In this document: positions 3,591-16,275 of the stretch, in pieces
Position numbering within the stretch: position 1 is the stretch's first letter
Layout of the letters: each line of letters opens with the position of its first letter
Source of the DNA: Acidimicrobiia bacterium
Lineage (GTDB): Bacteria > Actinomycetota > Acidimicrobiia > Acidimicrobiales > Poriferisodalaceae
Reading direction: 5' to 3'
DNA length: 64,000 nt
NCBI GenBank assembly: GCA_022820925.1
Contig: JAJEEO010000008.1
Coordinates: forward strand, 124,001 to 188,000
The notes under the pieces: generated by a model
Seen by the model: only the letters and a program-made list of their open reading frames with translations
What the model was told of the DNA's origin: nothing
Databases searched by the model: none
Made by a program: the position numbers and the translations under genes

Positions 3591-3671
3591 GAGCGGACGA
3601 CGGGAATCACTGAGCTACCCGCAGCACACCATGTGCTGCCAGCATCATCAGCTTGGAAGGCTGAGGTTCTG
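3591..3671 (-). pseudogene. Degenerate tRNA-Gly copy with hairpin insertion
   Basis: This segment matches the intact neighbouring tRNA-Gly at its 3' acceptor/T-arm end and through the anticodon arm, but the 5' part of the T arm is replaced by about 30 nt holding a perfect 8-bp hairpin (GCAGCACA-CCA-TGTGCTGC, 3621-3639). It stops in the D arm, so the acceptor 5' strand is missing. The insert also contains GCGGGTAGCTCAG on the minus strand, which looks like the 5' end of another tRNA, so the copy may be a chimera. It cannot fold as a normal tRNA. Confidence 0.7.
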
Positions 3672-3674
3672 TCG

Positions 3675-3746
<72 letters not shown>

Positions 3747-3769: not shown

Positions 3770-3868
3770 AGCGGACGACGGGAATCGCCGTATCAATGGC
3801 GGCGCCAGAGGCGCCGCGTGCATCATCAGCTTGGAAGGCTGAGGTTCTGGCCATTGAACTACGTCCGC
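3770..3868 (-). pseudogene. tRNA-Gly(TCC)-like copy with a hairpin replacing the T-arm 5' side
   Basis: Acceptor stem, D arm and anticodon arm are identical to the intact tRNA-Gly, and the 22-bp upstream flank is duplicated too. Five nucleotides of the T arm are replaced by about 32 nt with a perfect 8-bp hairpin GCGGCGCC-AGA-GGCGCCGC (3799-3817). A weak T arm, ACGG/CCGT with loop CGATTC, could still form beside what would be a long variable arm, but the conserved TTC of the T loop is lost. It lies promoter-proximal to the intact copy. Whether it is transcribed or charged cannot be told from sequence. Confidence 0.65.
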
Positions 3869-15923: not shown

Positions 15924-16062
15924 CGCGGTCGGCACAGTCCCCGGCAGAGGACAGGCACAAGAAGGCACAGATGCCGGAGCGAAGGAGGCGGGCGCACGTT
16001 CCCGCGCGGCTCCGAAATCCGGTAGCGAGGCCGCGTCACCCGTGGCATCCTTGACCCCCCGT

Positions 16063-16145
16063 GCGGGTCGTAGCTCAGTTGGTTCGAGCGCCACGCGCTC
16101 GCCCCCAGCGAGCGCCATCAGACACAGCGTGGCACTGGAGGCCGG
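16063..16145 (+). pseudogene. Broken tRNA-His copy with hairpin in the anticodon arm
   Basis: The 5' half matches the intact tRNA-His at 16201, then the anticodon loop is replaced by about 37 nt containing a perfect 8-bp hairpin, GCGCTCGC-CCCCA-GCGAGCGC (16095-16115). The copy resumes with TGGCACTGGAGGCCGG and diverges before the T arm, so no cloverleaf can form. Confidence 0.75.
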
Positions 16146-16200
16146 CTGCCGGAAATCCGGTAGCGAGGCCACCGCGGCCGTGGCATCCTTGACCCCCCGT

Positions 16201-16275
16201 GCGGGTCGTAGCTCAGTTGGTTAGAGCGCCAGTTTGTGGCACTGGAGGCCGGGGGTTCGAATCCCCTCGATCCGC
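16201..16275 (+). tRNA. tRNA-His (anticodon GTG)
   Basis: A complete tRNA with encoded G-1 (16201) opposite discriminator C73, as expected for His. Acceptor CGGGTCG/CGATCCG has one G-U pair; anticodon stem CCAGT/ACTGG has loop TTGTGGC; T loop TTCGAAT. Confidence 0.95.

Follow-up and report, generated by a model that had tools for sequence, protein, structure and literature searches.

Tandem altered copies of tRNA genes, several with a hairpin in place of a tRNA loop, in a genus of Acidimicrobiia

In the genus of Acidimicrobiia analyzed here, tRNA genes, with or without their promoter flank, are found partly duplicated beside themselves, with a portion of a stem-loop replaced in the copy: the anticodon loop in tRNA-His and tRNA-Met, the core of the whole anticodon arm in tRNA-Lys, and the T arm in tRNA-Gly, with 4–8 nt lost. 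The altered copies are located on either the 5′ or the 3′ side of the intact gene; between species, they are gained and lost. Because similar broken copies accompany several tRNA genes, both in the genome under study and in its close relatives, something appears to keep making or keeping them. The best explanation that we can offer, still a tentative one, is a class of tandem tRNA copies, non-decoding and specific to the genus, that would arise by local duplication and loop replacement through template switching and would subsequently be reshuffled or lost by recombination.

Altered tRNA-His and tRNA-Gly copies in the window

The stretch of DNA analyzed (hereafter, the window) comprises 64,000 nt (G000:C6:124001-188000) of a 3.28-Mb genome, denoted G000. 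At the His locus, it contains the following features:

16014..16093, plus strand: repeat unit 1, the 5′ flank and the 5′ part of the tRNA-His copy (repeat search: 80 nt, 93% to 16152-16231, spacing 138)
16064..16145, plus strand: altered tRNA-His copy, consisting of the 5′ half, the hairpin insert and 17 nt (anticodon 3′ strand and variable region), with the T arm missing
16094..16128, plus strand: His insert of 35 nt, in place of GTTT of the anticodon arm
16095..16115, plus strand: His hairpin, perfect, 8 bp with a 5-nt loop
16202..16277, plus strand: intact tRNA-His (GTG) (ARAGORN; Rfam 66.6 bits)

The intact gene is the only tRNA-His (GTG) detected by ARAGORN among the tRNA loci of this genome. 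The altered copy runs from its 5′ half, which ends in GCGCCA, through the 35-nt insert into GTGGCACTGGAGGCCGG and CTGCC. The flank of the next unit begins right there, so that this copy has neither the T arm nor the 3′ acceptor. The repeat search also yielded a second direct repeat at the locus, in which 16129-16145 and 16236-16252 are identical over 17 nt. The 138-nt-period duplication that includes the upstream flank and the 5′ part of tRNA-His, as well as the loss of the T arm, had been reported in a first-pass annotation of this DNA, and both are confirmed, with 17 nt of the 3′ half preceding the break. The same annotation described an 8-bp hairpin that replaces the anticodon loop; the hairpin is indeed perfect over 8 bp, but only GTTT (4 nt, the 5′ side of the loop and the top of the stem) is replaced, and the GTG letters are kept to the right of the insert. 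An Rfam scan of the window produced tRNA matches only, and the altered His copy itself was not among them.

A similar tRNA-Gly array, which had been noted 12 kb away, is indeed present, and contains Gly(UCC) copies with two different 8-bp hairpins, unlike in their arms, inserted at one shared T-arm site. On the minus strand, copy A is followed by the intact gene and then by copy C:

3770..3868, minus strand: altered tRNA-Gly copy A, a whole tRNA in whose T arm a 33-nt insert replaces GGGTTC (tRNA model score still 42.7 bits)
3787..3819, minus strand: copy A insert (hairpin 3799-3817, 8 bp)
3674..3746, minus strand: intact tRNA-Gly (TCC)
3591..3670, minus strand: altered tRNA-Gly copy C, from AGAACC of the D-stem 3′ strand, with a 33-nt insert and the last 18 nt of tRNA-Gly
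3609..3641, minus strand: copy C insert (hairpin 3621-3639, 8 bp)

A perfect hairpin of at least 8 bp occurs in 0.41% of random 35-mers drawn from the window, compared with all three inserts in the window. Together with the Met insert found in sister species, these inserts share a layout, namely, 33–37 nt that consist of an 8–10-bp hairpin and a 12–13-nt tail, with 4–6 loop nucleotides lost. Intron-bearing tRNA genes were considered and rejected, because removal of the insert would still leave the loop short of 4 (His), 5 (Met) or 6 (Gly) bases.

Altered copies across tRNA genes and sister species

Three of the 44 tRNA genes of the genome under study, those for His, Gly and Lys(TTT), have altered tandem copies. 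Across six genomes of the genus, 15 of the 257 tRNA genes are altered-copy loci (three in G000, four in G002, and two each in G003, G005, G006 and G007) vs none of the 43 in the control, which is a single genome (G013) from another genus of the same family. The tally includes exact matches of at least 12–13 nt within 1.2–1.3 kb, together with the results of searches of the Met and Lys loci; some leftover tRNA loci of the surveyed genomes were covered in part, and the Lys locus of G006 comes from a DNA search. Not counted were single short T-loop matches, a 13-nt match in inverted orientation, and the 3′ end of a tRNA-Ala located 1.1 kb off, which resembles an attachment remnant. In 489 loci, no two intact tRNA genes sharing an anticodon were found in tandem within 2.5 kb. 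The first-pass annotation had proposed a recurrent process at tRNA loci, to be refuted by the lack of further examples in the genome and in sister genomes. Such examples are found both in this genome (Gly and, without a hairpin, Lys) and in sister species (His, Gly and Met), and the proposal therefore survives. Also in this genome, three weak matches to the tRNA model (L076, L077 and L078) consist of tRNA 3′ ends only and resemble attachment-site remnants.

The phyletic patterns differ between the loci. Gly copy A is present in G000 alone among the 11 genomes of the genus, and copy C in six (G000, G002, G003, G006, G007 and G008). The five genomes without copy C (G001, G004, G005, G009 and G010) retain a single intact gene with its native 3′ flank, that is, the loss is clean. 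None of the 21 positions of the Gly-C hairpin varies among the six species, whereas 73 of 186 wobble positions do so in the adjacent reading frame (one-sided Fisher test, 6e-5; the test ignores shared ancestry, takes fast sites for comparison and does not tell selection from an effect of local repair). Such constancy is not predicted for mere debris and, for Gly-C, counts against that view. In G007 and G010, an inverted-repeat element of ~90 nt is located 3′ of tRNA-Gly, before the next gene (L083 and L086), and its core has no match in the window.

At the His locus of G002, the intact gene comes first and is followed, after ~85 bp, by a copy that starts from AGAGCGCCA, carries a homologous insert and continues through the tRNA 3′ end into the native 3′ flank, so that the hairpin copy is on the opposite side of the intact gene relative to G000. 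The seven genomes G004 to G010 have one intact tRNA-His and no hairpin copy, no match was found at the His locus of G003, and in G001 the contig stops inside the gene, leaving the 5′ side alone visible. Of the two 66-nt His flanks of G000, that of copy 1 is nearest to G009 (0.92) and that of copy 2 to G008 (0.82), which is only suggestive of different lineage origins; the alignments lie partly outside the repeat. The region 5′ of tRNA-His in G006, G007 and G001 (L035, L036 and L040) contains a palindromic, MITE-like insert of ~85–90 nt (GGAGGCGGCAGG ... CCTGCCGCCTCC), the core of which has no match in the window at up to three mismatches.

The hairpin copy of tRNA-Met(CAT) is found in four of the 11 genomes (G001, G002, G005 and G007) and is absent from the remaining seven. 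Its 37-nt insert takes the place of TCATA, anticodon included. The stem consists of 10 bp with one G-T pair, or two in G001 and G002. The hairpin and the final six letters of the insert are nearly constant across the carriers; the six letters that follow the stem vary (CATCAG in G007, CGGTAG in G005, ATTGGG in G002 and G001). The copy is located 5′ of the intact gene in G001, G002 and G005, and G007 has a whole tRNA copy ~1.3–1.35 kb 3′ of the intact gene. Between the intact and hairpin tRNA-Met of G007, there is a 311-aa reading frame (L256:1320-2255) with a lipoprotein-like start and a HEAAH motif, for which no Pfam family scored above the cut-off.

The tRNA-Lys(TTT) copy of G000, 99 nt downstream, has GGACTTTT changed to CCCGCATC, without a hairpin. 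Lys copies with a replaced anticodon arm are present in five of the 11 genomes (G000, G003, G005, G006 and G010) and were not seen in the other six within the sequence read downstream of tRNA-Lys. The Lys pseudo-copy is followed by a second, shorter repeat with a period of ~100 nt in G003 (L365) and by a short repeat in G010 (L368). The DNA from tRNA-Lys(TTT) to the next gene varies among members of the genus (L367, L373, L374, L376, L377 and L378). A genomic island at tRNA-Lys was considered, given that the spacer differs by species and reaches ~17 kb in G008, but was rejected because its far end has no tRNA fragment by eye.

Searches outside the genus loci yielded the following. The Met hairpin pattern has 22 matches in viral contigs, none of them in a tRNA (by eye). 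Among 397 genomes of the order, the Met gap pattern matched five, with only G007 matching in a tRNA (G001, G002 and G005 are outside this sample). The Gly gap pattern, run over genome contigs, matched 41 stretches, of which five are true Gly-C, all in Acidimicrobiia jk18 bins, and 36 have no tRNA context by eye. The matches listed from a phage collection show ordinary tRNA-His similarity only.

Possible origins of the replaced segments

We tentatively rank template switching in foldable tRNA DNA ahead of three rivals (a mobile hairpin, a tRNA-linked RNA under selection, and integrase scars), because the hairpin arms differ between loci and neither an element nor an enzyme was found; the origin of the hairpins is what we infer rather than observe. 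Single-stranded tRNA DNA would fold, replication would stall at the tRNA stem-loop, and the stalled replication would switch template, giving rise to both a duplication and a fold-back hairpin. Recombination between the copies would then carry the altered one across to the opposite flank of the intact gene or delete it, so that a single intact gene remains, as in most of the relatives. Altered copies would outlast intact duplicates, possibly because their disrupted homology slows deletion, and those within the tRNA transcript may acquire a secondary role as a processed trailer RNA. Template switching has been reported to create perfect RNA stems (PMC8794818).

The occurrence of altered copies on both sides of the intact gene, for His (G000 and G002) and for Met (5′ in G002, 3′ in G007), speaks for this reshuffling. 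Putative signs of fold-back are found at two loci: a 5′ fragment of tRNA-Tyr in G002 runs into a 10-nt stretch that repeats the tRNA's D arm in inverted orientation (by eye), and at the His locus, the hairpin arm and a 9-nt direct copy of CGAGCGCCA next to the insert border on sequence of the tRNA itself. At these two loci, copying from a local template is suggestive. The Met and Gly arms count against template switching, having no local template above chance: in the local template search, the longest matches of the Met insert and of both Gly inserts (8–10 nt) are at the level of a random 35-mer. Furthermore, template switching would be expected to generate hairpins elsewhere, and yet, no hairpin of at least 7 bp is found in the other 69 indels of 20–60 nt in aligned window DNA (the window vs stretches of G004, G008, G009 and G010, 47 to 67 kb aligned each, counted per relative, so that events are partly repeated). 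Among the listed indels of up to 200 nt, Gly-C is the only one that bears a hairpin.

The likeness of the inserts of different tRNAs in length and layout, along with CGCCATCAG, which lies beside the hairpin in both His-G000 and Met-G007, also goes against template switching and hints at a shared source. The invariance of the Gly-C hairpin is a further point against this reading. Both features, the latter seen in two of the three tRNAs, as well as the confinement of hairpin indels to tRNA copies and the insertion of different hairpins at the same place in Gly A and C, are compatible with a small mobile hairpin element that enters tRNA stem-loops and replaces a few loop bases, an explanation that we consider unlikely. 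Such insertions would be tolerated in tandem copies, since the intact gene performs the function. The insertion of short hairpins into genes is known from the palindromic elements of Rickettsia and the double-hairpin elements of (fungal) mitochondria, which form dispersed families, whereas none was found here outside tRNA copies in the loci searched. The tail motif behind the hairpin occurs, among these loci, only in the His and Gly-A copies, apart from one viral-contig match in coding-like DNA, which makes a dispersed hairpin family less likely. Also at odds with a mobile element are the wholly different arms at different loci, the failure to find an inserting enzyme, and the loss, rather than duplication, of 4–6 nt of the target.

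Selection could have kept the copies as putative functional non-decoding RNAs (tRNA-linked repeats or pseudo-tRNAs) that would be transcribed along with the tRNA and then excised, and in which the hairpin and the adjacent variable 6–7 nt would be the working part. The invariant Gly-C hairpin, the near-constant Met hairpin next to six variable letters and the duplication of the 5′ flank with some of the 5′ copies are in line with this possibility, which we nevertheless regard as improbable. The predicted fold of Gly-A is better than those of 200 of 200 shuffled sequences (z −3.2), but the other five have z values from −2.0 to −0.2 (His G002, −2.0; Met G007, −1.5; His G000, −1.0; Lys, −1.0; Gly-C, −0.2), so that RNA structure is weakly supported overall. 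In addition, the copies are absent from many sister species, and the Lys copies decay. Still more doubtful is the possibility of a dedicated process, particular to this genus, that places hairpins in the loops of surplus tRNA copies, producing a family of non-decoding tRNA-like RNAs in which a conserved hairpin adjoins a fast-changing 6–7-nt stretch, possibly a pairing or recombination sequence.

Anticodon and T loops are the classic crossover places of tyrosine integrases, and the replaced segments are located in these loops. Both fragment orders occur, and in G007, 1.35 kb with a secreted-type reading frame separates the intact tRNA-Met from the hairpin one. The copies might thus be scars left behind when tyrosine-integrase elements, having recombined in one of the two loops, were lost again, but this seems quite unlikely to us: no integrase was identified among the nine window proteins scanned (eight around the His locus and one at 9.4-12.3 kb), the G007 reading frame belongs to no Pfam family above the cut-off, the spacers elsewhere are only 60–140 bp long, and att exchange would yield hybrid halves instead of a new hairpin flanked by both halves of the tRNA. 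An attachment remnant is marked by a displaced tRNA fragment that bounds an integrase-encoding element, and no such arrangement was found when these nine proteins and the G007 reading frame were considered. The first-pass annotation had dismissed attachment remnants on the grounds that the 5′ end of the tRNA is copied. This argument does not remove an integrase origin because the His copy of G002 and Gly-C carry the tRNA 3′ end and the replaced parts are the anticodon and T loops.

Finally, an artefact of metagenome assembly, brought to mind by the relatives whose record titles identify them as metagenome bins and by a run of N in one array, is extremely improbable, given that the Gly-C junctions are the same in six genomes, with clade-specific differences, and that homologous inserts are shared by two genomes for His and by four for Met.

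Relation to known tRNA copies

Copies of tRNA genes are usually viewed either as working genes or as scars of integrated elements. In Pseudomonas fluorescens, a large-scale duplication reportedly results in a working gene, in contrast to the small altered copies described here. Tandem duplication has been reported as the source of tRNA gene copies in that bacterium (PMC7661048).

The closest known counterparts are tRNA-linked repeats and pseudo-tRNAs. The tRNA-linked repeats (TLRs) of Escherichia coli contain 18–19 bp of the tRNA 3′ end (PMC8144298). As with the TLRs, going by the excerpted description (PMC8144298), the copies here adjoin the tRNA gene in its putative transcript region, and the 3′ end of Gly-C is formed by the last 18 nt of the tRNA just upstream of it; the His copy of the window, which is upstream and has no tRNA 3′ end, departs from this pattern. 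Unlike the TLRs as described, copies here are also found 5′ of the gene together with the 5′ flank, include anticodon-arm and D-arm parts, and carry a loop-replacing hairpin. The pseudo-tRNA tRNAOther of Bacillus cereus is likewise a non-decoding tRNA-like gene that was recruited or retained, but it is a single gene by a genomic island, and the excerpted text of its report describes no tandem hairpin copies (PMC3399842). Integrating elements, too, leave a partial copy near an intact tRNA, but according to the excerpted report, such fragments lie at the ends of 9–23-kb islands (PMC9897764), whereas here the spacing is mostly ~60–140 bp and a hairpin splits the copy. Within the titles and beginnings of abstracts searched, a scope outside which most subscription journals fall, tandem tRNA copies in which a hairpin replaces a loop are not described. 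The His array is a variant of tandem tRNA pseudo-copies and tRNA-linked repeats and does not belong to a defined family.

At four or five loci, closely related species show how altered tRNA copies, with a repeatedly observed loop-replacing hairpin, appear, move and disappear, so that the mechanism of tRNA-locus instability can be traced step by step. If selection maintains the hairpins, they would represent an additional class of tRNA-linked RNAs, found beyond Enterobacteria.
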